Assembly (NCBI RefSeq): GCF_019656215.1
Contig: NZ_BPLK01000001.1
Span: 124,001 to 188,000 of the forward strand
Length of the DNA: 64,000 bases
Source: Apilactobacillus zhangqiuensis
GTDB taxonomy: Bacteria; Bacillota; Bacilli; Lactobacillales; Lactobacillaceae
Direction: 5' to 3'
The notes under the pieces were generated by a model. That model searched no databases and had not been told where the DNA came from. It worked only from the letters and a program-made list of their open reading frames with translations. A program made the position numbers and the translations under genes. Positions 3,251-63,749 of this stretch are shown here, one piece after another (position 1 is the stretch's first letter; the number at the start of each line of letters is the position of its first letter).

Positions 3251-3410
3251 GGGCATTCCTCCTGATTTACGTTTTTATTGTGCCTAATATTACCACAATG
3301 AATTTGATATTAAACAAAAGATACTCCATATTAAAGTTATTTACATCGATGTGTGAAAGTGATACGGTTAAGGCTAACATTAATTTTGGATTAGAGAGAG
3401 GTTATATAAG

Positions 3411-3761
3411 ATGAAAAAAGCAGTTCTCATAATTGTGGCAGCGATTGGCGTCTTGGTAGTGGCAGTTCTTGCCTTTAATATTTACAAGCAATCTGATTTC
3501 AGTGTGCAAAATGAATATTACGGTATCGTTCAAAACGATAAAAGTTTGAAGAAATATTGTAAGGAACCAGCAGTTATTAAGTTCATTCAAAAACATCGTA
3601 AAGAACATCCGAAATTTACTGATAACCAGGGGTCGGGAAACCTTTTATACTATGTTGTTACATATAGAAACAAATCTTTAACCATTGGTGTTGACGGAAG
3701 AGTTGATAGTAGCGGAACTAAAATCACCAAAATTTTTAATGATAGTGATTTAAGCAAATAA
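3411..3761 (+). CDS. Small membrane-anchored or secreted protein, unknown function
   Basis: 116 residues: a short basic start (MKK), one long hydrophobic segment at about residues 4-23, then a polar extracellular domain with a single Cys. There is no lipobox, so the hydrophobic helix is either an uncleaved anchor or a signal peptide. A GAGAGAGG ribosome site precedes the ATG and a strong terminator follows, so it is a monocistronic gene divergent from the PucR-type regulator. I do not recognise the family. Confidence 0.7.
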   Translation: MKKAVLIIVAAIGVLVVAVLAFNIYKQSDFSVQNEYYGIVQNDKSLKKYCKEPAVIKFIQKHRKEHPKFTDNQGSGNLLYYVVTYRNKSLTIGVDGRVDSSGTKITKIFNDSDLSK

Positions 3762-3763
3762 AC

Positions 3764-3795
3764 AAAAGACACTCCTAAACAGGAGTGTCTTTTTG
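3764..3795 (+). terminator. Rho-independent terminator
   Basis: Perfect 10-bp stem AGACACTCCT / AGGAGTGTCT with AAAC loop and a T-run. Confidence 0.85.
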
Positions 3796-3797
3796 AT

Positions 3798-3947
3798 CTA
3801 TCTAATAAAGTTAACGATTGATTGAATAATGTGGGGAAGCTTCAAAAAGATGTCTGAAGGTTCAATATGTAATAGGGTTAAGTGAAAAGCAATTGAGTTA
3901 GAAATCATTTCGGCGATTCCATGAAGTAAAGCGAAAATAAATTGCAC
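3798..3947 (-). CDS. Possible 49-residue hydrophobic peptide
   Basis: A GTG at 3947 lies 6 nt after an AGGAGTG ribosome site and opens a short frame (MQFIFALLHGIAEMISNSIA onward) rich in hydrophobic and aromatic residues. It ends just before the bidirectional hairpin at 3764. A longer upstream start exists but has no ribosome site. Small size and lack of recognised family make this tentative. Confidence 0.35.
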   Translation of the reverse strand: MQFIFALLHGIAEMISNSIAFHLTLLHIEPSDIFLKLPHIIQSIVNFIR

Positions 3948-4020
3948 GACAAACACTCCTATAAATTTTATTAATCTAATTCTAATTCTATTATGAAAAA
4001 ATAACAAGTTAAGAAAATAT

Positions 4021-4051
4021 AAAAAAACTCCAACCGAAGTTGGAGTTTTTG
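4021..4051 (-). terminator. Terminator of manganese catalase gene
   Basis: Stem AACTCCAAC / GTTGGAGTT with a CGAA loop; T-run on the minus strand side. Confidence 0.8.
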
Positions 4052-4108
4052 TTTGGATTAATAAGTTTAATTGTCGTATTTCGAAAATTGTAGGAGTAAA
4101 GGTAGAAA

Positions 4109-4915
4109 TTAGCCTTGGTCGTTGTGTAAACGAGGGTCAGCTGGTTTAACTTCTGGAATACCACCCATAGCTTCTGGGTTTTCTTGGTAAGTGAACTTTT
4201 GACCGTCTTTAGCAACTTGGCCTTCGAATTCACGTGAACCTTCACCATCAGAGAAGTTCATTAGAACGTGAGCGTATTCGCTGTGTTCGATATCGTGCAT
4301 GTTACCAGGAACGATAACACCGTATTTTTCTTCTAGTTCTTCTTGAGCCTTCATGAATTGTAGTTGGTGTTGAGTTTCACGAGCTAATAGGAACTTCAAC
4401 ATGTCACGAACACCTTCGTCATCAGTCATGTCGTATAGACGGCTAACTTGTAGACGAGCTTGTGATTCACGAACAACGTTGAAACGCATGTCAGCAACTA
4501 GGTTACCTGATGAAGTAACGTAACCAGCGTTCCATGCAGCACCGTTAGGGTTGTTTAGACCAGCGTTTAGACCATGAACTAATGCATGTTCTGGGTCCAT
4601 ACCTGAAAGTAGGGCAGCCTTAGCTGGGTCATTCTTCATTTCTTCAGTAGTCATAGTAGTTGGTGCACCTTCTAATAGGTAACCAATCATAGTTGAAATC
4701 ATTTCAACGTGACCAATTTCTTCAGTACCAGTGTCTAATAGTAAGTCTTTGTACTTTTCGTCACCAGTTGATGACCAACCTTGTGATAGGTATGACATCA
4801 TACCAGTAGTTTCACCCCATTGACCACCTAGGGCTTCTTGTAGACGACGAGCCATAATTGGATCTGGACGATCTGGCTTAGCGTTGTATTGTAGTTTACG
4901 AGTATGTCTGAACAT
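4109..4915 (-). CDS. Manganese (non-heme) catalase
   Basis: Splits hydrogen peroxide to water and oxygen with a di-manganese centre; cytoplasmic. The 268-residue length and sequence match the Lactiplantibacillus plantarum type. The metal ligands known in that enzyme are visible: Glu35 (in GGQWGE), Glu66 and His69 (in TEEIGHVE), and Glu150 and His183 (in NVVRES and RETQHQ). The ATG is preceded by GGAAAGAGGT. It is monocistronic with its own terminator. Because lactic acid bacteria do not make heme, this enzyme protects without an external cofactor, unlike the heme catalase at 56698. No clear PerR box was found upstream. Confidence 0.95.
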   Translation of the reverse strand: MFRHTRKLQYNAKPDRPDPIMARRLQEALGGQWGETTGMMSYLSQGWSSTGDEKYKDLLLDTGTEEIGHVEMISTMIGYLLEGAPTTMTTEEMKNDPAKAALLSGMDPEHALVHGLNAGLNNPNGAAWNAGYVTSSGNLVADMRFNVVRESQARLQVSRLYDMTDDEGVRDMLKFLLARETQHQLQFMKAQEELEEKYGVIVPGNMHDIEHSEYAHVLMNFSDGEGSREFEGQVAKDGQKFTYQENPEAMGGIPEVKPADPRLHNDQG

Positions 4916-5212
4916 AACAGTACCTCTTTCCTTAGATGTTCAAGGCGGTAGACGATTTTATTAAACCCAAGTTAGAGCTTTATCCCAATAAATAAAAATC
5001 GATCCTATATTACATCTTAATTGTTTTTTATTGTCCAAAATATCCATACGTTTTGTATTAATATTTTGTGTACGATTTAATATACCACAACCGAATAATT
5101 GCACCAAAGATTATGACTCGAAAAACATAAAATTTTTTCAATTAAAAAATTATAATTCACATAAACGCCGTCTTAATAACATTTTTGAAGAGTAACTAAA
5201 TGTTTGAAATGT
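4916..5212. other. AT-rich intergenic region between divergent genes
   Basis: Holds the divergent promoter regions of manganese catalase and rexBA. I see AT-rich tracts but no gene or RNA fold that I can support. Confidence 0.5.
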
Positions 5213-5241
5213 CTGACACATCTTTTCACGTATTATATAAT
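5213..5241 (+). promoter_or_regulatory. Sigma-A promoter of rexBA
   Basis: -35 CTGACA (5213-5218), 17-bp spacer, perfect -10 TATAAT (5236-5241), about 34 bp ahead of the rexB start. Confidence 0.7.
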
Positions 5242-5274
5242 TAGAATATTAATTCATGAAAAAGGGGTAATGAA

Positions 5275-8200
5275 ATGTCTTTACAATTTATTTTGGGAAC
5301 CGCTAGCTACGACCATGAAGAAGTCATCGTTGATTCACTGAAAGAATCAATCAATAATCACCCTGATGATGAATTCTTCTATTTAGTTCCAAACCACATT
5401 AAGTTTGAATCCGAAGTGCAAGCTTTAAAGGATTTAAACACCGATAATGAACCAATTTACGCCGAAAGTAAGTTCCAGACTTTCTCCATTACCCGACTTG
5501 TCTGGTATTACATGAAGAATAATCAGGAATACCAAAAGACAAGACTAAGCGACTCCGGTATCAGCATGCTGATCTACCAAATCTTAATCGATCACCAGGA
5601 TGAATTGACCGTTTTTAGGGGTGAAACCGGCCAACCTGGTTTTATTCAAAAATTAGCTCAACAAATCAGTGAAATGCAAGCCGGCCAAATTTCTGCCGAC
5701 AATTTAGAAAAAATCGTCGACAACAACGACAAAATAAACGCTGGATTGCGCGATAAAATGCATGATTTCATCATCATTTACCGCGCTTTTGAGGAACAAA
5801 CACAAGGAATCTACCTATACAAATCAGATGTTTTAAATCTTTTCTGTCGTTTCATCGAAAATGACGAATTAGACCTATCCCACAGTCATTTCTACTTCAA
5901 TGGATTTAACCAATTTACCGCCCAAGAAGCCAAATTGGTGGAATTACTAATCAAGCGCTCCGCTGGGGTCACCATCGGTTTTAACTTGGATCGTAAGTAT
6001 CCTGACGAATTACCACAAGGACCTAACTTATTCTTCCAATCAGCTAAGTGGTATAACCGTTTCTACAACATTGCCCGTGCCAACAACGTTCCCGTGTTGG
6101 TCGATAAAATGGCGAAGAATCTTCGCGTGTCCGATGATTTACACAAACTAGATACATACTGGGCACAATCAACAGGACTGGGCGATATCGACAAGAGCGA
6201 ACTAAGTAACTCTGATAGTATTCAGGTCTATCGTGCTGATAGTCCGTTTGCCGAAGTGGAAAATATTGCCGTCAAGATTCGCCAAATGGTCGCTCATGGT
6301 GGCTACAAATACTCCGATTTCTTAATATTGACTCGTCACTTGGACAAATACCAAAACGTAATCAAACCAGTGTTTAAACTACTCGACATTCCTGCGTTTA
6401 ACGACGTTACCAAATCAATGGAAGACCATCCATTGGTGGAATTAATCGATGCGCTTTTCAGTCTAGAAAATGGTTCTCGTAAGTATCAATATCAAGATGT
6501 AATGCGACTATTGAAGACAGAATTAATGGTCCCAGGTGATGGTAATGGTAACTTTATGAAGACTGATGATTACCGACAATATGTGGCATTAACCGAAAAC
6601 TTGGTACTAAAGAATGGTTATGAAGGTTCTCGTTGGACTCAAAAGGAAGACTGGCAATACGCATGGTTATCAGATAGTGATTTTGGTGTGCAAGCAGATA
6701 AAATGCGTAACATTTCCGGGAAAATTAACGTAATTAGACACTTTATTGGTGATAACTTCCCACCATTCTTCAAGAAGTTGCGAAATGCCAAGACCGGTCA
6801 AGAAGCCGCAGCCACATTATTCCAATTTCTAGTGGACATGGGAGTGGTTAGAAGACTAAAGGAATGGCGTAACGACTCCATCTTAAAGGACAACCTATTG
6901 GATGCTGCACAACCAGAACAGGTATGGCAAACATTCTGTAATTTATTGGACGACTACGTTTCAATCTTAGGTGACCGTGAATTTGTTTCCGACGACTTTT
7001 TGAGTCTTCTTCAAAGTGGATTCTCAGGTGCCAACTACTCACAAATTCCATCAACATTGGACCAAGTTGCCATTTCTGAAAGTGGAATCGTTCAAATGAA
7101 TAATAGAAAAGTGGTCTTCATGATGGGTGCGACCGACGAAGTAATGCCTGATAAGATTACCAATGAAGCACTATTTAGTGACGCGGACCGTGATGATTTG
7201 CGTGACTTCTTTGATGATGACCAATACTTGCGTGAAACTTCTGAAAACCAAATGGCCAACGATCCATTCCTAAACTATCTAGCATTCCTATCAGGTAGTG
7301 AAAAGCTAATCTTTTCCTATAGTTTAGGCGATAGTGACGAATCATCAGTGGCCATTTCACCATATGTTTCCAGAATTGCGGAACACTTTGATATTGATAT
7401 CCAACACATTTCCAGTCATCCTACTGCTGATGCCAAGGATATCTACGAATATGTTGGAACTTATCGTTCAACACTTCGTCACTTAGTTCAAGCCAGCCAA
7501 GATGCCAAAATAAATAACTCTAATTTGGCACCAGCATGGCAATATGTATACAACAAACTAGATCAAAACCTAAACTACCGTGATTTAACCAACAAACTAT
7601 TGGGTGGTTTGGACTACAACAACACACCTACTCAATTGTTGCCAGAAATCGTTACTGGTTTATACGGCGATAAAATCAATACTTCCATCTCTAAGTTGGA
7701 ACAATTTTACAGCAACCCATACGAATACTTCTTGCGCTATGGTTTGAAGCTAAAAGAACGTGATGTCTTTGACTTATCTCCAGCAAGTACCGGTCAGTTC
7801 TATCACGAATCAATGGACCACTTGATGCGCATCGTAAATTCAGAACACATCGACTTGGAAAACTTGGACAAACAAGCAATCAATGAATTGGTTGATACTG
7901 TTGTTGCCAAGATGTTAGAAGATCCAAACGACTTCCAATACACCATCTTGAGCAGTTCTAGTCGAATGAATTACATCAAGAACCAATTGATTAAGACCGT
8001 TAAACACACAATCGAAACCATTCAAAAACAAAGTAAGTACACACCAATGCGTGCGAAAAAGACCGAAATCTCATTCGGTCAAGTTGGTCATAAGGATGAT
8101 TTGAAACCACTTAGTTTTGAATTGCCTAAGAGCAACGAACTAACCACTGCAAAGTTGGTTAACGTTCGTGGTCGAATCGATAGAATCGATTCAATGAATG

Positions 8201-8844
8201 TCGATGGCAAGAACTACCTAGGAATTGTCGACTACAAGTCCAGTGAACGTAAGTTGGACTTCTCACGTGTCTACGACGGAACTTCTATGCAAATGATGAC
8301 CTACATCGATGTGTTAGCGCACAACCTAGGCATCATCGATGAAGAAGAAAAGGCCGCCTTGGCCGGTGCCGTATACATGCACATCTACAATCCTAAGTAC
8401 ACCAAGGATGATTTGAAGAAATCATTTGAAGAAGCGGTATTAAGCAAACAAAAATACCAAGGGATTCTAGTTAACGACGGTGAGTTATTGGATAAGATTG
8501 ATAAGACCATCGCAGATGACAAGTACGGTTCATCCAATGTTTACCCATTGAGAAAGAAAAAGGACGGTAGTTTCTACAAGTCCAGTCCAATCGTGCAACC
8601 TGAAGACTTGGACCTATTGCTATCTCACAACGAGGACCTAATTAAGAAGGCCGGATTGGAAATCTTTACTGGAAATATCGATTTGAAACCAGCGCGCTTT
8701 GGTCAAAACCAAGACGCAATGCAATTTACACCTTATCGTTCAATCATGCAGTTCGATCCGCTATTGAATGAAAACAACTATAGAGACGTGCCTAACTACT
8801 CGTTAGAAGACGTCTTGAAAATGCTAAGGGGGGACAATCAATAA
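5275..8844 (+). CDS. rexB: ATP-dependent helicase/deoxyribonuclease subunit B (RexB/AddB)
   Basis: A 1189-residue subunit of the RexAB (AddAB) helicase-nuclease that processes double-strand ends for RecA-dependent recombination. The N-terminus (FILGTASYDHEE) replaces the Walker A found in classical AddB, as is usual for RexB. The C-terminal nuclease domain is intact: VRGRIDRID followed by GIVDYKSSERK gives the acidic residues and the DYK of the RecB-nuclease fold. The four iron-sulphur cysteines of AddB proteins are not seen, as in the RexB subgroup. Its TAA overlaps the rexA ATG by one base, so the two are translationally coupled. Confidence 0.93.
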   Translation: MSLQFILGTASYDHEEVIVDSLKESINNHPDDEFFYLVPNHIKFESEVQALKDLNTDNEPIYAESKFQTFSITRLVWYYMKNNQEYQKTRLSDSGISMLIYQILIDHQDELTVFRGETGQPGFIQKLAQQISEMQAGQISADNLEKIVDNNDKINAGLRDKMHDFIIIYRAFEEQTQGIYLYKSDVLNLFCRFIENDELDLSHSHFYFNGFNQFTAQEAKLVELLIKRSAGVTIGFNLDRKYPDELPQGPNLFFQSAKWYNRFYNIARANNVPVLVDKMAKNLRVSDDLHKLDTYWAQSTGLGDIDKSELSNSDSIQVYRADSPFAEVENIAVKIRQMVAHGGYKYSDFLILTRHLDKYQNVIKPVFKLLDIPAFNDVTKSMEDHPLVELIDALFSLENGSRKYQYQDVMRLLKTELMVPGDGNGNFMKTDDYRQYVALTENLVLKNGYEGSRWTQKEDWQYAWLSDSDFGVQADKMRNISGKINVIRHFIGDNFPPFFKKLRNAKTGQEAAATLFQFLVDMGVVRRLKEWRNDSILKDNLLDAAQPEQVWQTFCNLLDDYVSILGDREFVSDDFLSLLQSGFSGANYSQIPSTLDQVAISESGIVQMNNRKVVFMMGATDEVMPDKITNEALFSDADRDDLRDFFDDDQYLRETSENQMANDPFLNYLAFLSGSEKLIFSYSLGDSDESSVAISPYVSRIAEHFDIDIQHISSHPTADAKDIYEYVGTYRSTLRHLVQASQDAKINNSNLAPAWQYVYNKLDQNLNYRDLTNKLLGGLDYNNTPTQLLPEIVTGLYGDKINTSISKLEQFYSNPYEYFLRYGLKLKERDVFDLSPASTGQFYHESMDHLMRIVNSEHIDLENLDKQAINELVDTVVAKMLEDPNDFQYTILSSSSRMNYIKNQLIKTVKHTIETIQKQSKYTPMRAKKTEISFGQVGHKDDLKPLSFELPKSNELTTAKLVNVRGRIDRIDSMNVDGKNYLGIVDYKSSERKLDFSRVYDGTSMQMMTYIDVLAHNLGIIDEEEKAALAGAVYMHIYNPKYTKDDLKKSFEEAVLSKQKYQGILVNDGELLDKIDKTIADDKYGSSNVYPLRKKKDGSFYKSSPIVQPEDLDLLLSHNEDLIKKAGLEIFTGNIDLKPARFGQNQDAMQFTPYRSIMQFDPLLNENNYRDVPNYSLEDVLKMLRGDNQ

Positions 8845-11800
8845 TGGAATACACAAAGCCACAAAAAGAAGCCGTTACCGGACATTTTGATGAAAACGTC
8901 CTCGTTTCAGCCTCAGCTGGTTCTGGTAAGACCCGTGTCTTAGTTGATCGTGTTATCAACAAGTTATTAAACGACCGCGTTAACATTGATGAAATGTTAA
9001 TCGTTACCTTTACTAAGGCCGCTGCTAAGGAAATGCGTGACCGTATTCAAAAGGCGTTACAACAAGAATTGAAAAAAGCCACTGACTCTGATGTTAAGGC
9101 GTTTTTAGTTCGTCAATTACGTCGTTTGCCAGTCGCCGATATTTCAACAATGGACTCATTCTGTCAAAAAATCGTCCAAAGTTACTACTACATTATTGAT
9201 TTGGACCCTAACTTTAGACTGTTGGCGGACCAAACCGAAAGTCAAATGCTAAAGGAACAGGTCTGGGATTCAGTTCGTGAAGACCTATACGCCAACGATG
9301 GTGATGGTTTATTTGCGCAGTTGACCGAAAACTTCTCCAATGACCGTTCCGATGATGGTCTAACCGATTTAGTATTTAGAATTTACGATTACGCCAACGT
9401 AAACCGTGACCCAATTGAATGGTTGAAGAATACCACCAAGATTTATGAAATCGATGGGGATGATTTGGTTCATTCCGACTTTTACCAAAACAATCTACTA
9501 CCATTCATTCAAAATGATTTAACACAACAACGTCTATCTTTTGAATCAGCTAAACGAATTGCAGATGAAAACTTGATGGAAAAAGAAGCAGCAGCCGTTC
9601 AAGTCGATATTGATAATATCAACGGTTTATACGATATGTTGCCTGATTCTGATTGGAATGACATCAAGCAAGCCTTTGAAGACGTTAAGTTCAAGGCCTT
9701 CCCGCGTGTTACCAAGGACTATGACGACATTGCTAAGGGACTTCACGACCGCATCAAAGACATTCGTGATAACGCCAAGAAGGCGGTTCAAAAACTCCCC
9801 GATAAGTACTTCGCGTTAAACGAAGAAGAAAACCTTTCAGTAATGAAGGATTCCAAGCAATTAATCGAAAAGTTAATTCAAGTTGTCCTAGCATTCACCG
9901 ATAGCTATCAAAAGGCTAAATTGAAGCGTCACTGTCTAGAATTCATTGATGTGGAACATTATGCCTATGATATTCTATCTGGCTCAGACGGCGAATCTAA
10001 GGCTGTCAGAGTTAATCTCCAAAATCAATATAATGAAATCATGGTCGATGAATACCAAGATAATAACCGTCTACAAGATGCGATTTTATCGACTTTGGCG
10101 AACCCAGAACATAGCAACATGTTCATGGTGGGAGATGTTAAGCAATCCATCTACCGTTTCCGTCTTGCCGATCCATCTATGTTTATCGAACGCATGGACA
10201 GTGATGATTGTCACACCATCGTCCTACCAGATAACTTCCGTTCCGCAGAAAACATCGATGACTTCATCAACTTAGTTTTCACTCAAACAATGGACAAACG
10301 AGTTGGTGAAATTGATTACACCGGGGATGCCAAACTAAAGGCCGGTGCGAAATACTATCCAGACGAATTACAATCTAATGTTGATGTGATGATTTACGAA
10401 AGTAAGGACGATGAAGAAGAACCAATCGACGACCAATTCCAAGTCCAAGACAGTGCACATGGCCAAGTCGAAATGGTTGCCCAAAAGATTAACGAAATGG
10501 TCGAAAAGAAGTTACCAGTGTTTGACCGTGACAAACAAGTGATGCGTCCAATTCAATACTCTGATATCTCAATTATTTCCTCGACTAGAAATAACAACTT
10601 AATCATTTCCGATATCTTTGGTTCATACAACATTCCAGTCCTAATCAATGGAGCGCAAAGTTACTTTAAGACCACTGAAATTCAAATTATGATGTCGATG
10701 TTATCAATCATTGATAATCCATACCAAGACATTCCATTGGTTGCGGTATTGCGTTCACCAATGGTAGGTCTAAACGAAAACCAATTGGCATACTTGAGAA
10801 TTAACCAAAAGACTGGTGATTACTTCAATGCCGTAATTAACTTTTACGATAATTATGAAAACATGGATCATTCCGAATTTGGTGACCAAGTATTCTCACG
10901 TGTAAAGACATTTGTCGAACAATTAAAACACTTCAGAGACGTTGCCCAACAGCATGCGATTGTTGATTTAATCTGGGACATCTACGAAACCACCGGATTC
11001 TTGGATTACGTCGGAGGGATGCCTGCCGGAAGACAACGCCAAGCTAACCTACATGCCCTATACGAACGTGCATATGACTACGAACAAACTAGTTTTAAAG
11101 GATTATTCCAATTCGTTCGTTTCGTGCGTCGCATGCAAGAAAGAAACGAAGACTTGGATGAAGCCAATGCTGATGATAACCAAGATGCAGTATCAGTAAT
11201 GACTATTCATGGAAGTAAGGGACTAGAATTCCCTGTTGTTTTCCTAATGGATGCCTCACATGGTTTCAACAGACAAGACAGCAATAAGGCCTACATCCTA
11301 AATGACCACTTAGGACTAGGAATTACCTACACCGACCCAGAAACTCGAATCAAACAAGATTCATTGCAACGCCAAGTGGTTGGTGCAATCGAAAACCAAG
11401 GATTGTTGGCCGAAGAAATGCGTAAACTATACGTTGCGCTAACCCGTGCGGAACAACAACTATTCATCGTTGGTGCCAGCAAGAATGAAAATAATAGAAC
11501 CAAGGTCATCGATGCCTGGAACAAGGCCGCCAGTGGTGACACCTTATTAGTCGATGCCGCCTTAAGAAGTGGTGCCAAGAGTTACTTAGACTGGATTGGA
11601 CCCGCATTGGTCCGTCATCCTAACTTTAGAAACAAGTTCGGCGACGACGTTACCTATAAAGGTTTAGACGATGATCAGACTAACTTTGATGTCGAATTTG
11701 TGAATGCCAACGACCTAGCTCAACACAGTCCATCAGGCGACAGTGCTGTCAGTGCCAAGTGGTTAAATCACATCGTTGAAAGTGCCAAGAAGATGGTGCC

Positions 11801-12569
11801 AAAGGACATCAATGTTGATGATGTTAATCAGGTCTTGGACTTCACTTATCAAAATCAAGTTGCAACTCATACGACTGCTTATCAATCAGTTTCCGAAATT
11901 AAACGACTATTTGAAGATCCTGATAGCATTCAATTGGGAAATTATGATGAACATTGGCAAGAAAATAATAAGCAAAAGAATATGTACGTCAGCTCTAACT
12001 TCACGGTTCCTAAGTTCATGCAATCAGTTGTCAAACCAAGTGCTGCTGAAGTCGGAACAGCTACCCACTTGTTGCTACAAGAGGTGCCATTGGACCACAA
12101 GCCAGAAGTAGGTGATGTGGTAGGGATGCTCCAACGTTTAGTTGCCGATAAGGTCGTTACCCCAGAAATCGCCGGCTTAATTCAAACCCAAGAGGTTATC
12201 AATGTGTTTGACAGTGAATTGGGACTACAAATGTTAGCTCATCCAGAACGAATTCATCGTGAAGCACCATTCTCGATGCTAATGGATGCTAACCTGGTAT
12301 TCCCTGGTTTTAATGCCGATTCACCAGAAAAAATCCTAATTCACGGGATTATTGATGGTTATATCGAATTAGACGACGAGGTCATCTTGTTTGATTACAA
12401 GACCGACTACGTGCCAAACGATAGTGATAGAAGTATCAATAAGGCTGTTAAGAAGTACAAGGGTCAAATTAACCTATATGCCAAGGCGTTGGAAAATATC
12501 TTGCATAAACCGGTTACCGATAAATTTATCTACCTACTATCAATTAATAAACCAGTCAAAATTAAGTAA
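8844..12569 (+). CDS. rexA: ATP-dependent helicase/nuclease subunit A (RexA/AddA)
   Basis: A 1241-residue UvrD/Rep-type superfamily 1 helicase with a C-terminal RecB-like nuclease; partner of RexB. Walker A is SASAGSGKTRVLVDRV at residues 21-36, motif II is VDEYQDNN, and later helicase motifs include MTIHGSKGLEFPVVF and LYVALTRAEQQL. The nuclease motif near the C-terminus reads GIIDGYIELDDEVILFDYKT. It starts on the last base of rexB and ends at a strong terminator, making a two-gene operon. Besides repair, this enzyme degrades linear foreign DNA and spares Chi-marked chromosome, so it contributes to phage resistance. Confidence 0.95.
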   Translation: MEYTKPQKEAVTGHFDENVLVSASAGSGKTRVLVDRVINKLLNDRVNIDEMLIVTFTKAAAKEMRDRIQKALQQELKKATDSDVKAFLVRQLRRLPVADISTMDSFCQKIVQSYYYIIDLDPNFRLLADQTESQMLKEQVWDSVREDLYANDGDGLFAQLTENFSNDRSDDGLTDLVFRIYDYANVNRDPIEWLKNTTKIYEIDGDDLVHSDFYQNNLLPFIQNDLTQQRLSFESAKRIADENLMEKEAAAVQVDIDNINGLYDMLPDSDWNDIKQAFEDVKFKAFPRVTKDYDDIAKGLHDRIKDIRDNAKKAVQKLPDKYFALNEEENLSVMKDSKQLIEKLIQVVLAFTDSYQKAKLKRHCLEFIDVEHYAYDILSGSDGESKAVRVNLQNQYNEIMVDEYQDNNRLQDAILSTLANPEHSNMFMVGDVKQSIYRFRLADPSMFIERMDSDDCHTIVLPDNFRSAENIDDFINLVFTQTMDKRVGEIDYTGDAKLKAGAKYYPDELQSNVDVMIYESKDDEEEPIDDQFQVQDSAHGQVEMVAQKINEMVEKKLPVFDRDKQVMRPIQYSDISIISSTRNNNLIISDIFGSYNIPVLINGAQSYFKTTEIQIMMSMLSIIDNPYQDIPLVAVLRSPMVGLNENQLAYLRINQKTGDYFNAVINFYDNYENMDHSEFGDQVFSRVKTFVEQLKHFRDVAQQHAIVDLIWDIYETTGFLDYVGGMPAGRQRQANLHALYERAYDYEQTSFKGLFQFVRFVRRMQERNEDLDEANADDNQDAVSVMTIHGSKGLEFPVVFLMDASHGFNRQDSNKAYILNDHLGLGITYTDPETRIKQDSLQRQVVGAIENQGLLAEEMRKLYVALTRAEQQLFIVGASKNENNRTKVIDAWNKAASGDTLLVDAALRSGAKSYLDWIGPALVRHPNFRNKFGDDVTYKGLDDDQTNFDVEFVNANDLAQHSPSGDSAVSAKWLNHIVESAKKMVPKDINVDDVNQVLDFTYQNQVATHTTAYQSVSEIKRLFEDPDSIQLGNYDEHWQENNKQKNMYVSSNFTVPKFMQSVVKPSAAEVGTATHLLLQEVPLDHKPEVGDVVGMLQRLVADKVVTPEIAGLIQTQEVINVFDSELGLQMLAHPERIHREAPFSMLMDANLVFPGFNADSPEKILIHGIIDGYIELDDEVILFDYKTDYVPNDSDRSINKAVKKYKGQINLYAKALENILHKPVTDKFIYLLSINKPVKIK

Positions 12570-12570
12570 A

Positions 12571-12606
12571 AAAATAACCCTGAACATAAGCGTTCAGGGT
12601 TATTTT
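12571..12606 (+). terminator. Terminator of rexBA operon
   Basis: Stem AATAACCCTGAAC / GTTCAGGGTTATT with an ATAAGC-type loop and Ts. Confidence 0.85.
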
Positions 12607-12721
12607 AATATTTTACTATTAATTTAATAATAGAAATTTAATTTTCCAGATAAATGTATTATACAAATAGTATATTTATTTTTAAGTAAGTTAGACAATA
12701 AAAAGGAATATATAAGCATTA

Positions 12722-12759
12722 AACATTGTGATTAGGTGAACAATGTTGACCTAATTTTT
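12722..12759 (+). promoter_or_regulatory. Overlapping inverted repeats ahead of the aldehyde dehydrogenase
   Basis: Four arms lie in the order A-B-A'-B'. AACATTGT (12722-12729) pairs with ACAATGTT (12740-12747), giving a palindrome whose core TTGTGATTAGGTGAACAA partly fits the Rex operator (TTGTGAA-N4-TTCACAA). ATTAGGTGAAC (12731-12741) pairs with GTTGACCTAAT (12745-12755) with one mismatch and an AAT loop, followed by TTTTT, which looks like an intrinsic terminator. The two pairings exclude each other in RNA. A possible promoter (TAGACA then TATAAG) sits just upstream. Operator, attenuator or both are possible. Confidence 0.45.
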
Positions 12760-12902
12760 AATCAAAAATGGATATTTTCTTTAAAAAAACATAGTGAAAA
12801 TTAATTATTTTATGAATGTCAATGGGTTGAAACCCTTTAATTACACTGATAAAATCAAATTGGAAACGTTATTAGTATCTAAATTAAAGGAGGGCGTTTT
12901 TG

Positions 12903-14279
12903 ATGGTTCAAGTTGATGAAATGATTAACAATTTAGTAGGTAATGCTCACACTGCATTATCTGAATTAGAAAAGTTAGATCAATCAAAGGTAGACTCAAT
13001 TGTAGATGCAATGGTCCAAGCTGGTCTAGATCACAGTGCAGAGTTGGCAAAATTGGCTCATGATGAAACCGGTCGTGGTAACACTCATGACAAGACGATG
13101 AAGAATATTTTTGCTAGTGGTCAAATCGGTAACTTTATTAAGAACCATAAGACTGTTGGAATTATCGACGAAGATGATGAAGCCAAAACAGTTACAATTG
13201 CAGAACCATTAGGGGTGTTAGCTGGTGTTACTCCAGTTACCAACCCAACTTCAACTACTTTATTTAAGGCAATCATTGCGATGAAGACTAGAAACCCAAT
13301 CGTATTTAGTTTCCATCCTCAAGCTTTGAAGTCCTCAATGAAAGCAGCTGAAATTGTATTAGATGCAGCCGTTAAAGCAGGGGCACCAATGAATTCGATT
13401 CAATGGATTAGTGAACCAAGCATTGACGCAACTAATGCTTTGATTCACCACCCTGGTGTTGCAACGATTTTAGCGACTGGTGGACCAGCCATGGTCAAAG
13501 CCGCTTACTCAAGTGGTAAACCCGCATTAGGTGTGGGTCCTGGTAATGCACCATTATATGTTGAAAAGTCCGCAGATTTAGATGCAGCAGTTAAAGATAT
13601 CGTATTATCAAAGACATTTGATAATGGTATGATTTGTGCTACTGAAAACAGTCTGGTAATCGATTCAGCCATCTATGATGACATGAAGAAACGCCTAAGT
13701 GACGCTGGTGTATACTTCATCGCTGAATCAGATCAAGACAAGCTAGCACAAACTATGTTTAACCCTGAAACTGGTGGTGTTAACGGACCAATCGCTGGTC
13801 GTTCAGCTAAGCAAATCGCTGACATGGCCGGAATTGAAGTTCCAGAAGGTACTAAGGTATTGGCCGCTGAACTAACTGAAGTTGGCATTGACCACTTACT
13901 CTCTGGAGAAAAACTTTCACCAGTTGTATCGGTTTACAAGGTAGCTGATTCAGACCATGCATACGATACTCTAGAATCAATCCTAAACTATGGTGGACTA
14001 GGTCACACTGCCGGAATTAGATCAAATGATTCTGACGTGATTACTCAATTCGGCATCAAGATGAAGGCTTGCCGTATCCTAATCAATACTCCTTGCTGTC
14101 TAGGTGGGGTTGGTAGCATCGTTAACGGATTGGAACCTTCACTAACGCTAGGAACTGGTTCATGGGGCTTTAACTCCATTTCACATAACGTTACAGACTT
14201 TGATTTACTCAACCTTAAGAAAATTGCTTACCCACGTAAGAATAGTAACTTTGAAGAACTTATTAAAAAGTATATGTAA
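12903..14279 (+). CDS. Acetaldehyde dehydrogenase (CoA-acylating), stand-alone AdhE N-terminal domain
   Basis: Interconverts acetyl-CoA and acetaldehyde with NADH; cytoplasmic. The 458 residues match the aldehyde dehydrogenase half of bifunctional AdhE: EPLGVLAGVTPVTNPTSTT, the Gly-rich GVGPGNAPLYVEK, and the catalytic Cys at about residue 245 in KTFDNGMICATENS. The protein stops shortly after the domain (SHNVTDFDLLNLKKIAYPRK), so the linker and iron alcohol dehydrogenase domain of AdhE are absent, and a terminator follows directly. ATG 12903 is 8 nt after AAAGGAGGG; a TTG three bases earlier is less well placed. Loss or shortening of adhE is characteristic of fructophilic Lactobacillaceae, which use external electron acceptors instead of ethanol formation. 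EutE-type function in another pathway is less likely, as no microcompartment genes are near. Confidence 0.9.
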   Translation: MVQVDEMINNLVGNAHTALSELEKLDQSKVDSIVDAMVQAGLDHSAELAKLAHDETGRGNTHDKTMKNIFASGQIGNFIKNHKTVGIIDEDDEAKTVTIAEPLGVLAGVTPVTNPTSTTLFKAIIAMKTRNPIVFSFHPQALKSSMKAAEIVLDAAVKAGAPMNSIQWISEPSIDATNALIHHPGVATILATGGPAMVKAAYSSGKPALGVGPGNAPLYVEKSADLDAAVKDIVLSKTFDNGMICATENSLVIDSAIYDDMKKRLSDAGVYFIAESDQDKLAQTMFNPETGGVNGPIAGRSAKQIADMAGIEVPEGTKVLAAELTEVGIDHLLSGEKLSPVVSVYKVADSDHAYDTLESILNYGGLGHTAGIRSNDSDVITQFGIKMKACRILINTPCCLGGVGSIVNGLEPSLTLGTGSWGFNSISHNVTDFDLLNLKKIAYPRKNSNFEELIKKYM

Positions 14280-43243: not shown

Positions 43244-43346
43244 TTCTTATTATGTGGAATTATAGATAATTATGAATAAAAATATGGAAAAGCAATTTGC
43301 TTTATTAGTTAACATTGGGATAAAGCTAACTTGGGATTTCTCCCAA

Positions 43347-43418
43347 CTGCTCCGGCTGGACTCGAACCAGCAACCATCGCATTAACAGTGCGCTATTCTA
43401 CCATTGAACCACGGAGCA
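43347..43418 (-). tRNA. tRNA-Asn (GTT), copy 3 of the cluster
   Basis: 72 nt on the minus strand. The acceptor stem TGCTCCG / CGGAGCA pairs fully with T1-A72 and G73 discriminator, as expected for Asn. The anticodon loop CTGTTAA gives GTT and the T arm holds GGTTCGAGTCC. CCA is not encoded. It differs from the other two copies in acceptor and T-stem bases, with compensating pairs. Confidence 0.92.
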
Positions 43419-43465
43419 AAACTGAGGTGAAAAATTATCTTTTTAATGAGTAGAGTTCCACTCAA

Positions 43466-43537
43466 CTGCTCTAACTGGACTCGAACCAGTAACCTTCGCA
43501 TTAACAGTGCGCCATTCTACCATTGAACCATAGAGCA
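43466..43537 (-). tRNA. tRNA-Asn (GTT), copy 2 of the cluster
   Basis: 72 nt, acceptor TGCTCTA / TAGAGCA, anticodon loop CTGTTAA (GTT), G73, no encoded CCA. Nearly identical to copy 1, and probably co-transcribed. Confidence 0.92.
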
Positions 43538-43595
43538 AAAATGTTTAGTTATGTAAAAGATCTAACTCTTTTTGATGAGTAGGGTTGCTACTCGA

Positions 43596-43667
43596 CTGCT
43601 CTAACTGGACTCGAACCAGTAACCTTCGCATTAACAGTGCGCCGTTCTACCATTGAACCATAGAGCA
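43596..43667 (-). tRNA. tRNA-Asn (GTT), copy 1 of the cluster
   Basis: 72 nt, acceptor TGCTCTA / TAGAGCA, anticodon GTT, G73, no encoded CCA. First of three tandem copies; spacers of about 50-60 nt separate them and share the stretch GATGAGTAG/AATGAGTAG, which points to duplication of a unit. Confidence 0.92.
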
Positions 43668-43932
43668 AGAATGAAATATGTGCTTGGAATTCAATCCAAC
43701 TACTCAAAGGAGCATAAATATGTCTGCATGTGATATTTAAATGAGAGAAAAATGTGAAATGTTTTTCTATTAAATATATCAAATGACAATGATAATTTTT
43801 AACCCAAACATCTTACAAACTCAATAAAGACGGTAATCTATTGTTTTGCTTATGTAGTTATCATATCTCTGTCGTTGTTTATAATAATACACCATTATTA
43901 AAAGAATGCAACTGTTTTTCATTAAAAATTAA
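43668..43932. other. Leader/promoter region of tRNA-Asn cluster
   Basis: No gene is supported here. The minus-strand promoter of the tRNA cluster should lie in it; TTGCAT-like bases at 43911-43906 followed by AT-rich bases are a weak candidate. Confidence 0.35.
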
Positions 43933-58324: not shown

Positions 58325-59275
58325 ATGCCATTCGATCCAACAGATGCACAAGATGTATACAAAGATGCGGGAAAAAATGTATTATTTACAACCCTAACTA
58401 TTAATAGAAGTAACGCTGACGATGACCGTGAAAAAGTCGCAGAACTAGTATCTAGAGAACAAGCTATTTTACGCTCAATGAATATCAGATATCCAGAAGA
58501 ACATTTAAAAGTCGCTTTTGGTTTTTCAAACTCAATTTGGGACTACTTATTCGCTGATTCTAAGAAACCAAAAGAATTAGAAGATTTTAAACCAGTGAAG
58601 GGACCTAAATATACTTCACCAGCAACTCCAGCTGATTTATTTATCCACATTCGTGCTGATTCAGAAGCTGTCGTATATGAAGTGGCTAGCCAAATCAGAA
58701 ACTATTACCGAGATTTTGCTACCGTCGAAGATGAAACCAAGGGATTCAGATACTTCGAAGGACGTGCCATTATCGGTTTCGTTGATGGTACCGAAAATCC
58801 AGAAATTCAAAAGGCTTCTGTATACGCTATTATCGGGGATGAAGACCCTGACTTTGAAAATGGTTCATACGCATTTGCGCAAAAATACATCCACAATATG
58901 GATGCTTGGAATGCTCTAAAGACCGAAGACCAAGAAAAGGCCATCGGTAGAAAGAAATACTCCGATTTGGAACTAGAAGATGACGAAAAACTAGAAAACT
59001 CACATAACGTTGCATCTCAAGATAACGACGATGGTGTGGAACACAAGATTGTTAGGATGAATGTCCCATTCTCAGATCCTAGTTCAGGCAAGACTGGAAC
59101 ATACTTCATTGGATATGCTAGACATTGGACAGTTACTAAGCGCATGTTAGAAAACATGTTTGGCCAATCCGACCGCTTGCTAGATTTCTCCGATCCAGTG
59201 ACTGGTAACATGTTCTTTATTCCTTCTATGACAACGTTAGACCAAATCGTGGAAGGCGAACTACCAACTAAATAA
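58325..59275 (+). CDS. DyP-type heme peroxidase
   Basis: 316 residues. The diagnostic GFVDGTENP lies at residues 151-159 and the proximal heme His is in DDGVEHKIVRMNVPF, followed by YFIGYARHWTVTKRMLENMF. It oxidises organic substrates with peroxide; some DyP (EfeB-like) proteins have been linked to heme-iron release. No signal peptide or Tat motif, so cytoplasmic. No encapsulin or ferrous-iron permease gene adjoins it. Divergent from heme catalase, perhaps co-regulated. Confidence 0.92.
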   Translation: MPFDPTDAQDVYKDAGKNVLFTTLTINRSNADDDREKVAELVSREQAILRSMNIRYPEEHLKVAFGFSNSIWDYLFADSKKPKELEDFKPVKGPKYTSPATPADLFIHIRADSEAVVYEVASQIRNYYRDFATVEDETKGFRYFEGRAIIGFVDGTENPEIQKASVYAIIGDEDPDFENGSYAFAQKYIHNMDAWNALKTEDQEKAIGRKKYSDLELEDDEKLENSHNVASQDNDDGVEHKIVRMNVPFSDPSSGKTGTYFIGYARHWTVTKRMLENMFGQSDRLLDFSDPVTGNMFFIPSMTTLDQIVEGELPTK

Positions 59276-59290
59276 CTACCATTTATTTAT

Positions 59291-59322
59291 GAGAGCGTTG
59301 ATTAAATTCAACGCTTTTTTTA
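59291..59322 (+). terminator. Terminator of DyP gene
   Basis: Stem AGAGCGTTGA / TCAACGCTTT with TTAAAT loop and a T-run. Confidence 0.8.
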
Positions 59323-59504
59323 TATAAAATTTTACGAACGATTACTTAATTTTGTATAATAATCTTTGTGAAATTTTAATCCAAAACTTTTCACAAAGAA
59401 AAAAACATACATTCGGTGTATAACTAGAAAAAATAAAATTTTTTAGATCTATATATATGCCCGAAAAATCAACAATTATCGCTATTTTTTAGTTTTCCAC
59501 CTCA

Positions 59505-59666
59505 TGTGGATAACTCTGTGGATAACATTGTGGAAAAGAAAGTTACACGGAAAATGCACTACTGTGAAACGCCTGTGTGACAGTATTATTTGAGTGTTAC
59601 ACGGGCCAAAATGACATATAAACAGATGTGGATAACTCGTGAAAAACCTTGACAATCTGTGGACAA
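59505..59666. promoter_or_regulatory. DnaA-box cluster upstream of rlmH
   Basis: Three perfect boxes TGTGGATAA at 59505, 59517 and 59627, all in one orientation, plus the one-mismatch TGTGGACAA at 59658, inside a 460-bp gene-free, AT-rich region. rlmH is near oriC in many Firmicutes, so this may be part of the origin region, a DnaA-titrating site, or DnaA control of rlmH. dnaA itself is not in the window. Confidence 0.7.
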
Positions 59667-59739
59667 TATTAGTAGTAGTTAACAACATTTCCACATACTA
59701 AATATAGTGGTTCAAAATTTCAAAAAGGAGATTTCACAA

Positions 59740-60219
59740 ATGAATATTAAACTAGTTGTGGTCGGAAAATTAAAAGAAAAATATTTTAAGGCCGGAATTG
59801 ATGAGTATAGCAAGCGTTTATCACGTTTTTGTAAGTTTCGGATTATCGAAGTTCCAGATGAGAAAGCGCCTGAATCCCTCAGTGAATCAGAGATGCAAGA
59901 CGTTATGGATAAAGAAGGAACTAGAATTTTAGACAAGATTGCTGACAAGGAATATGTATATGCGCTAGCAATACTTGGTAAAGAACGTGCATCCGAAGAA
60001 TTCGCCAAAGAAATCGATAAGTTGGCCACATATGGTCATTCAGATATCACTTTTGTGATTGGTGGATCCCTTGGACTATCTCCAAAGGTATTAAAACGTG
60101 CCGATACCAAAATTTCATTTGGTCGTTTTACCTTGCCACATCAATTAATGCGCTTAGTACTAACCGAACAAATTTATCGTGCTTTCATGATCAACGAAGG
60201 TAGTCCATACCATAAATAA
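59740..60219 (+). CDS. rlmH: 23S rRNA (pseudouridine1915-N3)-methyltransferase RlmH
   Basis: 159 residues, the usual length; SPOUT methyltransferase acting on the 70S ribosome. Family markers: [31 protein letters not shown], the SAM knot [14 protein letters not shown], and the C-terminal [20 protein letters not shown] ending EGSPYHK. ATG 59740 is 7 nt after AAAAAGGAG; an upstream GTG (59707) lacks a site. Its last bases and stop codon form the left copy of a 14-bp direct repeat flanking the next gene. Staphylococcal SCC elements integrate at this same 3' end. The gene itself is intact. Confidence 0.95.
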
Positions 60220-60225
60220 GATACG
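60212..60225 (+). repeat. Left copy of 14-bp direct repeat (att-like) at the rlmH 3' end
   Basis: ATAAATAAGATACG, containing the last two bases of the His codon, the Lys codon and the TAA of rlmH, identical to 63736-63749. Confidence 0.75.
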
Positions 60226-60239: not shown

Positions 60240-63200
60240 TTGAATAACGGAATAAATCAAATCGAGCAATCAATTAAAGAAATGGAAGGAGGGCAGTTTC
60301 AAAAATTTTGTGATAGATATTTATATGAAAAAAACAATTGGAGCATTAACAAGAATTTTTGTGATTCTGGATCCATGCAAGGAACAAATAAGACAACCGC
60401 AGGTACGCCTGATAGCTATGTAATTGATGAAAATGGAAAATACATTTTAATAATGTATGGGACTCGTTCTGAAACAATTAAAAAAATTGAGAGTGATATA
60501 AAAGAAGCTAAAGAAAAAAGTGGAATAAGCACTGATATTATAAGCAAGATAATTTGCTGCTATGGCGGGAATAATATTTTTCCTGATAAACAGGAGGAAC
60601 TTAAAAATATTGCAAAGCCATGTGATTTAGAATTATTATCTTCAACGAGCATGGCATATGATATATTCGAAAATTATTATCATATTGCAGTTGATTTTTG
60701 TGGATTTGAAGAGGAAACGGATCAAATATTTGGATTACAAGATTTTATTTCAATTCATGATAAAAGTGAACTCAATGCACCTATAAGTAACCCATACATT
60801 GAGAATAATAATCAATTAGGTAAAATACAAGAATCAATAGAATACAATGATATAACAATAATCACAGGTAAACCTGGTGTGGGAAAAACTAGAAGCTCAG
60901 TTGAGATAATTAAGTATCTACAACAAAACAATGAAAATAATTGTATTTTAATAAAAAGTAATTCTATTAACGTTACAAATAATTTAAAACTCTATTTATC
61001 AACAGAACTAAATAATTATATATTTATTGACGATATAAATGAGATTGAAGATTTAAAGCATCTGCTCTCATTACTTCATAATGAAAATTACAATATTAAG
61101 ATACTATGTACCGTAAGAGATTATATTATTTCAGATTTAAAAAATGATATTAGTCAATATAAATATAAAGTTATTGAGATAGAGGTCCCCGATTCTAAAA
61201 CTCTAAAAAAAATATTGGTTGAGGGCTCTTTTTTAAGTTGCGAAAATCGAATATCAGATAATGATTTAAGAAAAATTCAAAACAATCCACGTCACAGTAT
61301 TATTTGTGCACAGGCAATAAACAAAGGGATTACTTTGCCTAATAATTTTAAGAATATATTTACTAGTTACTATGGAAATATCATAAATGATATAAACAAG
61401 AGTAATTCCGTTTTAGATACGTTATTATTGATTTCTATATTTAATAAACTTGATTTGAAGAGAAACGATTTTATTGAAGTTATTGGTTATATTGGGCAAA
61501 GTGAATCAGAATTTAACAATAATTTGTCTTATTTAGAACAAAATGAGTTGTGTGATGTTTATAAAGGAAGAATTGCTAGTGTTTCAGATCAATCTCTTAG
61601 GGATTATGTTCTTTATGTTTATTTATTCAAGAGAAATAATCTTTTAGAAACGAACTTTATTGATTTAATCGGTAATGAAACGATTGTTATTGCAATAAAT
61701 AACGCCTTGTCATTTATTTCGGACATTAACGATTTAAAAAAATTAGAAATCGATATTTCTAACATATATAGAAAAATCAAAAGCAGATTTGATACTTATC
61801 AAAAGTTGAATTTTATATCTAAGTACGGTTCTTTAATTCCAGATGAAGCATATGATACTTTAATAAGTATTTCTAACGATATAAATGATAAGGATGATAG
61901 TAATATTTATTCATCTTATTTTTTTGAAATATCAAGAGAGATTCTGAATTCTCCAAGTAAAGAAAAATACATAAGAGGAATATTGTTATTAATATTTAAA
62001 TTAATTAAGGCTAATACGGATTTAGTAGTAAAGGCTGTTAATTTTACATTTCAAAATTTTGGGGCAAATCTAAACAAAGAAGACATATTTATGGACTCAA
62101 AAAGATGTATTGAAGACATAAAAGAGTGTTTCGATAAGGATAGTTCTAATTTTATTGAATTTGTTATTAAGCTATGTGATAAATTATTGGATAAAGAAAG
62201 AACTGATATTACTTTTAACGGAAAAAATACTATTTGCCTTAGAAATTGGTCCTTGCCATGTGATGAAAGATCTACTAATTTTATTTCTTTAGTATTTAGC
62301 TTATTGGTAAAAGTTCCTAATTGCCCAGAAATTGATTCATTCATAGTAAAAAAGTTTAGAAACAACTTAAATGTTAAAGACACTATTAGTGAACGAATTA
62401 TTTTGGAATCCTTGAAAATGTGTAATTTAAATAGTGATTATAAAAAATTGATGAGTGTTGATTACTTTTTTGCACATAATGACGGGCATTGTTCTCCTAC
62501 CCAAATTAATGAATTTGATAATTTTCAATTAGGTTATGCACTTTTGAGTGACTATTTGCAAGACAGCATTGAAAACGTTGTTTATGATAAATTGAAAATA
62601 GATGCTCTTCCTGGATATTTAATGAAATACGATTCATACAGTGAGATTCTAAAAAATAGTAATTTTATATGTAATATAAATAGATTAATTGATTTGTTTG
62701 ATGATAGAGAAAAGAAACTGTTTATATCTGAAATTATGAAAAATGATATTAATAATTATAACTTTTACTTTGTAAACATCTTGGCATGTGAATATGGTAG
62801 TAAAAATTTCGTGAAAGACTTTTCGGATGAATTGCTTAAGCATCCTGTCTATTATTATAATGTTATTTGTTCCAACGGAATAATTGAAAATGGCTTTTCT
62901 GACGACATAAAAGATGTAATCCATTGTATGAATGATGAACAAATGAAATTTGTAAGGCTAAATATATTTATTAATCGTGTACAAGAAAATATTTCAGTTA
63001 TTCAAGAAATTATTAGTAAAAGTCTAAAGGTTGATGCATACGAGATAATATATGACTTAGATGTTGACTTGTTTAAAAATATTTTTAAGTATATTTCTAA
63101 CAAAAGTGAACTAATTGATATTTGCATAAAATGTTTGACAAAGACTTTATGTGGACTTGAATACGGTATTGCTAAATCTCTTATGGATAGTGAATATTTT

Positions 63201-63743
63201 ATAAGTGCATTATTAGAAAGAACATATCACGATGATTTACTTATCAATTATTTTAATTATGATAGTAATCTTCTAATCAATCTATGGGATAGTGAATACT
63301 TTAAAGGATATTTATCTAAATTTTTAGATTTGGATTCCAATTATTTTCAATCTCATCTGTTTTTTTGGAACTCTTTTTTTGGTTCTATAAATGGCAAGAG
63401 TAAAGATTGGCTAATCAAAAATTTGCATAGAAGTAATGATATTTGTTGTATTAAAAATATAATGAATGTAGTTAACTATCATTTTAGTTATGAGGAGTCT
63501 ATTCCTTTTTTTGAAATAATTAAGGATAAGAAAATTTCGTTGGAAGAAATTTATCCGCTTCATAGAGAATTTGGATGGTCGGGATCACTTATACCAGTAT
63601 TGGAGAAACAAAAGAAATTCATTGTTAAACTTCAAGATGTTTTCTATGGAGATCCTGATAATTATGTATATCTAAACAAAATTCATAAGAATCTCGAAGA
63701 TAGAATACATCAAGAAGAAATTAAAGATTATGTTGATAAATAA
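60240..63743 (+). CDS. Putative anti-phage STAND NTPase with N-terminal restriction-endonuclease-like domain
   Basis: 1167 residues, cytoplasmic. Residues 1-150 resemble the restriction-endonuclease-like domain found before nSTAND3-type NTPases (FQKFCDRYLYEKNNW; AGTPDSY at 54-60; then strand KYILIMYGT). The Asp of GTPD fits the active site, but a standard E/Q-x-K is not evident, so nuclease activity is uncertain. The NTPase has Walker A GKPGVGKT at 210-217, Walker B YIFIDDINEI at 260-269 and a sensor-like CTVRDY at 290-295. Residues 350-1167 are helix-rich with no repeat I recognise, the place where Avs-type proteins sense phage proteins. TTG 60240 follows GAGAGGAAG. The stop lies inside the right repeat. 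Defence is inferred from architecture and location. Confidence 0.75.
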   Translation: MNNGINQIEQSIKEMEGGQFQKFCDRYLYEKNNWSINKNFCDSGSMQGTNKTTAGTPDSYVIDENGKYILIMYGTRSETIKKIESDIKEAKEKSGISTDIISKIICCYGGNNIFPDKQEELKNIAKPCDLELLSSTSMAYDIFENYYHIAVDFCGFEEETDQIFGLQDFISIHDKSELNAPISNPYIENNNQLGKIQESIEYNDITIITGKPGVGKTRSSVEIIKYLQQNNENNCILIKSNSINVTNNLKLYLSTELNNYIFIDDINEIEDLKHLLSLLHNENYNIKILCTVRDYIISDLKNDISQYKYKVIEIEVPDSKTLKKILVEGSFLSCENRISDNDLRKIQNNPRHSIICAQAINKGITLPNNFKNIFTSYYGNIINDINKSNSVLDTLLLISIFNKLDLKRNDFIEVIGYIGQSESEFNNNLSYLEQNELCDVYKGRIASVSDQSLRDYVLYVYLFKRNNLLETNFIDLIGNETIVIAINNALSFISDINDLKKLEIDISNIYRKIKSRFDTYQKLNFISKYGSLIPDEAYDTLISISNDINDKDDSNIYSSYFFEISREILNSPSKEKYIRGILLLIFKLIKANTDLVVKAVNFTFQNFGANLNKEDIFMDSKRCIEDIKECFDKDSSNFIEFVIKLCDKLLDKERTDITFNGKNTICLRNWSLPCDERSTNFISLVFSLLVKVPNCPEIDSFIVKKFRNNLNVKDTISERIILESLKMCNLNSDYKKLMSVDYFFAHNDGHCSPTQINEFDNFQLGYALLSDYLQDSIENVVYDKLKIDALPGYLMKYDSYSEILKNSNFICNINRLIDLFDDREKKLFISEIMKNDINNYNFYFVNILACEYGSKNFVKDFSDELLKHPVYYYNVICSNGIIENGFSDDIKDVIHCMNDEQMKFVRLNIFINRVQENISVIQEIISKSLKVDAYEIIYDLDVDLFKNIFKYISNKSELIDICIKCLTKTLCGLEYGIAKSLMDSEYFISALLERTYHDDLLINYFNYDSNLLINLWDSEYFKGYLSKFLDLDSNYFQSHLFFWNSFFGSINGKSKDWLIKNLHRSNDICCIKNIMNVVNYHFSYEESIPFFEIIKDKKISLEEIYPLHREFGWSGSLIPVLEKQKKFIVKLQDVFYGDPDNYVYLNKIHKNLEDRIHQEEIKDYVDK

Positions 63744-63749
63744 GATACG
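63736..63749 (+). repeat. Right copy of 14-bp direct repeat (att-like)
   Basis: ATAAATAAGATACG, identical to 60212-60225. It supplies the end of the Asp codon, the final Lys codon and TAA of the STAND gene, mirroring how the left copy ends rlmH. Confidence 0.75.

Follow-up and report, generated by a model that had tools for sequence, protein, structure and literature searches.

A candidate Avs4-like nSTAND3 anti-phage gene inserted behind rlmH in Apilactobacillus zhangqiuensis

The STAND gene and its position in the rlmH unit

The window, i.e., the whole stretch of 64,000 nucleotides analysed here, comes from a lactobacillus of the honeybee or flower type and carries a gene for a large STAND protein directly behind rlmH. 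The locus comprises the following features.

59679..59708, + strand: promoter-like site TTAACA-18-TATAGT ahead of rlmH, from a consensus scan only; probable promoter of the rlmH-STAND unit
59740..60219, + strand: rlmH, 23S rRNA m3Psi1915 methyltransferase, 159 amino acids, true start at ATG 59740; found in 15/16 genomes of the genus with 86-100% identity
60212..60225, + strand: left copy of the 14-bp direct repeat ATAAATAAGATACG, holding the rlmH stop codon
60226..60233, + strand: ribosome-binding site AGAGGAAG of the STAND gene, the first bases of the insert, by direct reading
60240..63743, + strand: nSTAND3 / Avs4-like gene, 1167 amino acids, TTG start, without internal stop
63736..63749, + strand: right copy of the 14-bp direct repeat ATAAATAAGATACG, holding the STAND stop codon
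63751..63779, + strand: hairpin terminator with a 12-bp stem (-16.4 kcal/mol, z -4.9), rlmH's own at the empty site and now closing the rlmH-STAND unit

A first-pass annotation had proposed a large candidate STAND gene at 60240-63743 (+), and a single intact frame of 1167 codons is indeed present there. We accept the TTG start because most relatives in the family alignment begin no more than 1-2 residues from the same point and because AGAGGAAG lies 7-14 nt upstream, so the start is backed by homology as well. With 25.9% GC, where the window has 36.1% and rlmH 37.1%, the gene looks acquired. Its closest relative by sequence, with 84% identity over the full length, is found in A. kunkeei LMbo; genome G223 of the same genus is this record or one like it. 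Comparison with G223 yielded a dN/dS of 0.31 overall, indicating purifying selection, with values of 0.22 for the effector region, 0.23 for the NTPase and 0.37-0.48 for residues 481-1100.

The repeat ATAAATAAGATACG occurs exactly twice genome-wide, at 60212-60225 and 63736-63749, and it includes AAATAA, the last two codons of both genes (His-Lys-stop in RlmH, Asp-Lys-stop in the STAND protein). The insert starts with the STAND ribosome-binding site and stops at the STAND stop codon, with no other evident gene. Three sister genomes (G091, G117, G255) have empty sites with one copy of ATAAATAAGATACG and the hairpin directly after it. Between rlmH and the STAND gene we found no terminator, and no promoter or terminator belonging to the STAND gene alone is evident. 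Its precise placement after the rlmH stop codon and ahead of the rlmH terminator makes expression from the rlmH transcript probable.

G223 has the same insertion with an altered left repeat, and the synonymous divergence between the window and G223 is 0.266 for the STAND gene and likewise 0.266 for rlmH. From this it follows that both genes have probably shared one history since the species diverged; the other species probably lost the STAND gene or never acquired it. The content downstream of rlmH varies by species, both in Apilactobacillus and in the genus of G217, which marks the site behind rlmH as an insertion hotspot. The gene had initially been described as standing alone in such a hotspot, and this description can now be sharpened to a base-exact insertion with three empty sites. 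We claim exact insertion for the window and not for G217, because there no direct repeats surround the rlmH-linked relative and the flank behind the STAND gene is unlike any congener's flank behind rlmH. More unusual than the protein itself is the precise entry of one gene into the rlmH unit.

The surroundings hold two further features. All four exact DnaA boxes TTATCCACA of the window (58641, 59505, 59517, 59627) lie within about 1 kb just upstream of rlmH; the cluster spans 58641-59666 with near matches in between. The dnaA gene lies on this contig as well, about 108 kb away. Window positions 43346-43668 hold three tRNA-Asn (gtt) genes in tandem.

Arrival behind rlmH and the cassette chromosome question

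SCC and Enterococcus cassette chromosome (ECC) elements attach at the rlmH 3' end, with the core TATCATAA (PMC6222049). Staphylococci house their resistance cassettes at this kind of site. The insertion in the window likewise sits at the rlmH 3' end between direct repeats. It differs from these elements, however, in its size of 3.5 kb, in its single gene, in the lack of ccr genes and in a 14-bp repeat that lacks the TATCATAA core at the right end. When the window ends were checked for the core, the left end read TACCATAA and the right end TTGATAAA, so that the core does not stand at both ends. The search for ccr genes yielded a single gene-sized coding-strand reading frame between the repeats and no PF07508 match genome-wide. 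The insertion is thus not a proven SCC element, and canonical Ccr integration is not supported by the right junction.

Nevertheless, the gene could have arrived as an SCC/ECC-type mobile cassette, or be the remnant of one, placed by a Ccr-like serine recombinase that acted in trans or has since been deleted. We put this a little below an even chance, and it is compatible with a role in defence. In agreement with such an arrival, the insertion lies at the rlmH 3' end, which serves SCC and ECC elements as attB, and the STAND proteins linked to rlmH (in the window, G223 and G217, and near it in G036) group with full support in a single clade across three genera, which suggests site fidelity. Moreover, in genome G239 of the same genus a 21-bp repeat TACCATAAGTGATGCGGTTTT stands as an attL/attR pair at rlmH and 4.7 kb downstream. 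Within the G239 island (L083, reverse complement 2062-6790) lie a large serine recombinase in decay, recognised by PF07508 and a zinc ribbon, as well as an ABC transporter and an AAA_13 gene, the latter matching PADLOC PDC-S06. Against it stand the absence of a recombinase between the repeats and of any PF07508 match in the genome, the right junction TTGATAAATAAG without the TATCATAA core, and a shared repeat that extends rightward of the core, unlike SCC repeats; the sample, furthermore, consists of species representatives only. G297 shows a second motif of the TATCATAAGTGATT type 6.5 kb behind rlmH (L091, positions 5092 and 11622 of the reverse complement), which may mark a further cassette boundary.

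Domains of the encoded protein

The protein divides into the following parts.

60240..60734, + strand: residues 1-165, predicted effector with PD-(D/E)xK restriction-endonuclease (REase) fold, from predicted fold, Foldseek and conserved columns
60807..61679, + strand: residues 190-480, nSTAND3 NTPase and the following helical/winged part, from Pfam nSTAND3 and conserved columns
60867-60890, + strand: Walker A, GKPGVGKT, residues 210-217
61029-61034, + strand: D264-D265, end of the Walker-B-like YIFIDD
61680..63539, + strand: residues 481-1100, all-helical, repeat-like putative phage sensor, from predicted helices and regional identities
63540..63740, + strand: residues 1101-1167, better-conserved C-terminal cap with a (S/G)WSGSxIP motif, from conserved columns and regional identities

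This order of a nuclease-like domain, a STAND NTPase and a helical sensor, the design of Avs and nSTAND3 proteins, is the one that the first-pass annotation had read from the sequence. It had recognised the NTPase by GKPGVGKT and YIFIDD and suggested a comparison with nSTAND3 profiles. Pfam nSTAND3 (PF20720) indeed matched residues 191-310 with 29.3 bits at a gathering cut-off of 27.2 bits, and it matched 21/21 aligned members with a best E of 2e-10. Of 22 members, nearly all keep the key residues of Walker A and of the Walker-B-like motif. Residues 190-480 also contain a T291-x-R293-x-Y295 motif, and the NTPase positions invariant in the family alignment are G213, G215, K216, D264, D265, N267, T291, R293, Y295 and R351.

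The REase-like N-terminus proposed at first pass agrees with the predicted fold and with Foldseek. For residues 1-165, the predicted topology is a-a-b-b-a-b-a-b (pTM 0.73). With this domain alone, Foldseek retrieved the Avs4 chains of 8dgf (probability 1.00, TM 0.48-0.55) as well as EcoO109I, FokI and Nt.BspD6I, at E-values of 0.003-0.06, none of them below 0.001. RNA polymerase subunits related to Rpb5, a protein with a related fold at its N-terminus, rank high in this list, too. We hence base the REase-fold call on the consistency of the matches and on the topology, at E-values that all exceed 0.001: residues 1-165 are predicted to share the common fold of PD-(D/E)xK nucleases.

The catalytic residues themselves call for more caution. 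Q21, D25, K51, P57-D58 and K82 are invariant in the family alignment of the N-terminal domain, and D86 is nearly so. D58, which had been singled out from the start as a residue to mutate, thus holds its place throughout the family, following P57 and immediately preceding a strand. The E-x-K half of the motif, however, is absent from the window protein, where M72-Y73-G74 occupies the expected place in the next strand. The window protein and most sampled relatives have M at position 72, and G437 has T; E occurs there only in three BREX-linked proteins, in G438 and in some prophage or viral-contig members. At position 74 stands G, T or a similar residue, and K in no member. Nuclease activity is less certain because E-x-K is replaced by M-Y-G. 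K51, K82 and D86 may complete a shifted catalytic site, judging from their conservation.

The protein could therefore be a sensor as proposed below with a REase-fold domain that is catalytically dead or reconfigured, and that either serves as a DNA- or protein-binding module or uses helix-borne K82/D86 together with D58 instead of the normal E-x-K. The mostly M-bearing position 72 and the lack of K at position 74 in all members speak for this version, as do the invariant K51, K82 and D58 together with the nearly invariant D86. A dead domain, on the other hand, would hardly be expected to keep D58, K51, Q21, D25 and K82 invariant. The N-terminus is also the best-conserved part of the protein, with 26-50% identity to relatives, which fits a working enzyme, and Cfr10I/NgoMIV-type enzymes are an established case of catalytic residues that have shifted. 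We therefore consider a dead or reconfigured effector possible, yet unlikely.

The remaining roughly 680 residues (481-1167) are nearly all-helical in the predicted model. Relatives other than G223 share 26-50% identity in the N-terminal domain and 23-38% in the NTPase, but only 8-23% in residues 481-1100, rising to 10-34% in the last 67 residues. Together with the dN/dS values against G223, these regional identities match what is usually seen when a conserved effector is joined to a diversifying sensor.

The C-terminus had been left unplaced. At the level of sequence models this still holds, but the predicted structure aligns with Avs4 (8dgf) over nearly its whole length. In a search of the PDB with the full model, two Avs4 chains of the Avs4-portal complex 8dgf ranked first (E 1.5e-11 and 1.1e-10), so that Avs4 is the nearest solved protein by predicted structure; a comparison with Avs1-4 had been proposed for this region at first pass. 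The Avs5 filaments 9jap (1.7e-7) and 9nc9 (1.9e-6) followed, with human SAMD9, another STAND protein, and NLRPs among the further matches. Whole-chain TM-scores were low (0.15-0.21), and the placement hence refers to the fold class and not to the family. The full model itself has a pLDDT of 64 and a pTM of 0.42, with residues 651-820 below 50, and was built from an alignment of five sequences only. Among the PADLOC/NCBIfam matches listed for 21 members there is no Avs model, and searching the PDB by sequence, whether with the single protein or the family profile, returned either no match or only generic P-loop and chance ones. Because of the low TM-scores and the missing Avs model match, we name the protein Avs4-like and not Avs4; as modelled, it is a divergent Avs4-like nSTAND3 sensor. 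Structure matches in BFVD were mostly generic ATPases.

Relatives, proposed role and likeness to known systems

Relatives were counted in samples of whole genomes, taken as species representatives and including the window's own genome. Most of equal length, they occur in 10/301 genomes of the family, 17/395 of the order and 6/399 of the class. In a contig scan A. kunkeei LMbo was the sole match, distant plasmid matches were confined to Leptospira, and phage records gave no match to the protein. Viral contigs yielded 0 loci with the single-protein query and 4 loci with the alignment query; in three prophage-like viral contigs (L074, L075, L076), family members lie near terminase, portal, tail or capsid genes.

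Initially, a housekeeping family or a lack of defence genes around homologues had been named as the outcomes that would speak against a defence protein. We looked for both and found neither, the neighbourhoods of homologues being rich in BREX, type I restriction-modification, SIR2-HerA and RloA/B genes. A family member stands between pglX and pglZ in three BREX operons (L033, L034, L035), and BrxC, PglX and PglZ were confirmed in the G192 operon (E about 0). The relative adjoins SIR2-HerA in G941, and RloA/RloB-AbiL and MrcB-type genes in G902; type I restriction genes lie beside it in G676 and about 5 kb away in G487. In the window genome, no recognised defence gene directly adjoins the STAND gene.

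Many relatives follow core genes that serve as integration targets, namely rlmH (window, G223, G217, G687; nearby in G036), rpsI (G055, G490, G487), guaA (G375, G437), mnmG (G612) and smpB (G902). Small islands in which no recombinase was recognised repeatedly show duplicated gene ends, of 31 bp and 19 bp at rpsI in G490 and of about 150 bp, with mismatches, at mnmG in G612. At the boundary of the small rpsI island in L051 (reverse complement, about 7357-13336), 31 bp of the rpsI 3' end recur; only an HTH gene and the STAND gene were recognised inside, and no recombinase was seen. The STAND relative is broken in G036 and in G687, where the copy lies at a contig end. In G036 (L030 7827-11735), the stop-broken relative is found 2.3 kb from rlmH with a 54-bp direct repeat that includes a terminator hairpin.

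The protein is probably an Avs-type alarm against phages, encoded by a single gene. This reading draws on the domains, the Avs4 fold likeness, the defence neighbourhoods and the pattern of conserved effector and divergent sensor. Anti-phage sensing appears well supported by sequence and model, and the first-pass proposal of an Avs-like anti-phage STAND protein finds in silico support in the domain order and the defence neighbourhoods. Phage protection, for which we found no report of an assay in this family in the literature, is suggested by guilt by association. The Avs1-4 mechanism (summarised in PMC12931631) served as a template for the proposed action, and ligand, oligomerisation, nuclease activity and protection are all taken over by analogy. 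The helical C-terminal half would bind a conserved phage protein made during infection; our guess is a packaging protein, with portal or terminase the likeliest. ATP-bound nSTAND3 domains would then oligomerise and in this way bring together and activate the N-terminal REase-fold domains, which may cut DNA and so abort infection.

A STAND protein with a housekeeping or regulatory function and no part in defence would fit the transcription unit shared with a conserved rRNA methyltransferase. It is very improbable, though, given the sparse occurrence in family, order and class, the presence or absence between sister species, the AT-richness, the broken copies in G036 and G687 and the repeated location among defence genes. 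Least credible is a homing-like selfish gene whose nuclease cuts the empty rlmH 3' end so that repair copies the gene in: one gene, a precise insertion, no recombinase, a nuclease fold and site fidelity in one clade would suit it, but the nuclease fold is joined to a STAND NTPase and a long sensor in an Avs4-like manner, relatives occur in BREX operons, prophages and rpsI, guaA, mnmG and smpB sites, and repair-based homing usually creates no target duplication.

The alarm reading and the insertion may be combined. We may speculate that a Lactobacillaceae Avs4-like clade moves as a minimal promoterless one-gene cassette, which enters between the rlmH stop codon and terminator by non-Ccr recombination, uses the promoter, stop codon and terminator of that housekeeping gene, and has moved its nuclease catalytic residues. 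Taken with all its parts, this scenario is tentative and rather doubtful. The family as such consists of large nSTAND3 proteins without a name in the defence and protein-family libraries used, although by predicted fold they come nearest to Avs4. With it, a candidate NLR-like phage sensor becomes available in Gram-positive, bee-associated bacteria. The rlmH insertion with its empty sister sites opens the question of whether the SCC-type site is a port for defence genes beyond staphylococci and enterococci, and also bears on how recombinase-less defence genes reach such sites.

Among known systems, Avs4, as seen in PDB 8dgf bound to the portal of phage PhiV-1, is the closest. Both proteins combine a REase-fold N-terminus, a central STAND NTPase and a long helical C-terminus in one gene, and in the structure searches Avs4 comes first for the full model and near the top for the N-terminal domain alone. 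In contrast, identity over the structural alignment is only ~11%, no sequence profile matched here, the window protein is ~370 residues shorter than the Avs4 chain, and it has lost E-x-K. Avs5 (SIR2-STAND; 9jap, 9nc9), for which PF20720 has been reported in PaAvs5 (PMC12931631), shares the nSTAND3 core and the helical sensor, whereas its effector is a SIR2 NADase in place of the nuclease fold. Eukaryotic NLRs and SAMD9, also matched by Foldseek, resemble the window protein as STAND switches with a helical or repeat sensor but differ in their NTPase subfamilies and effectors.
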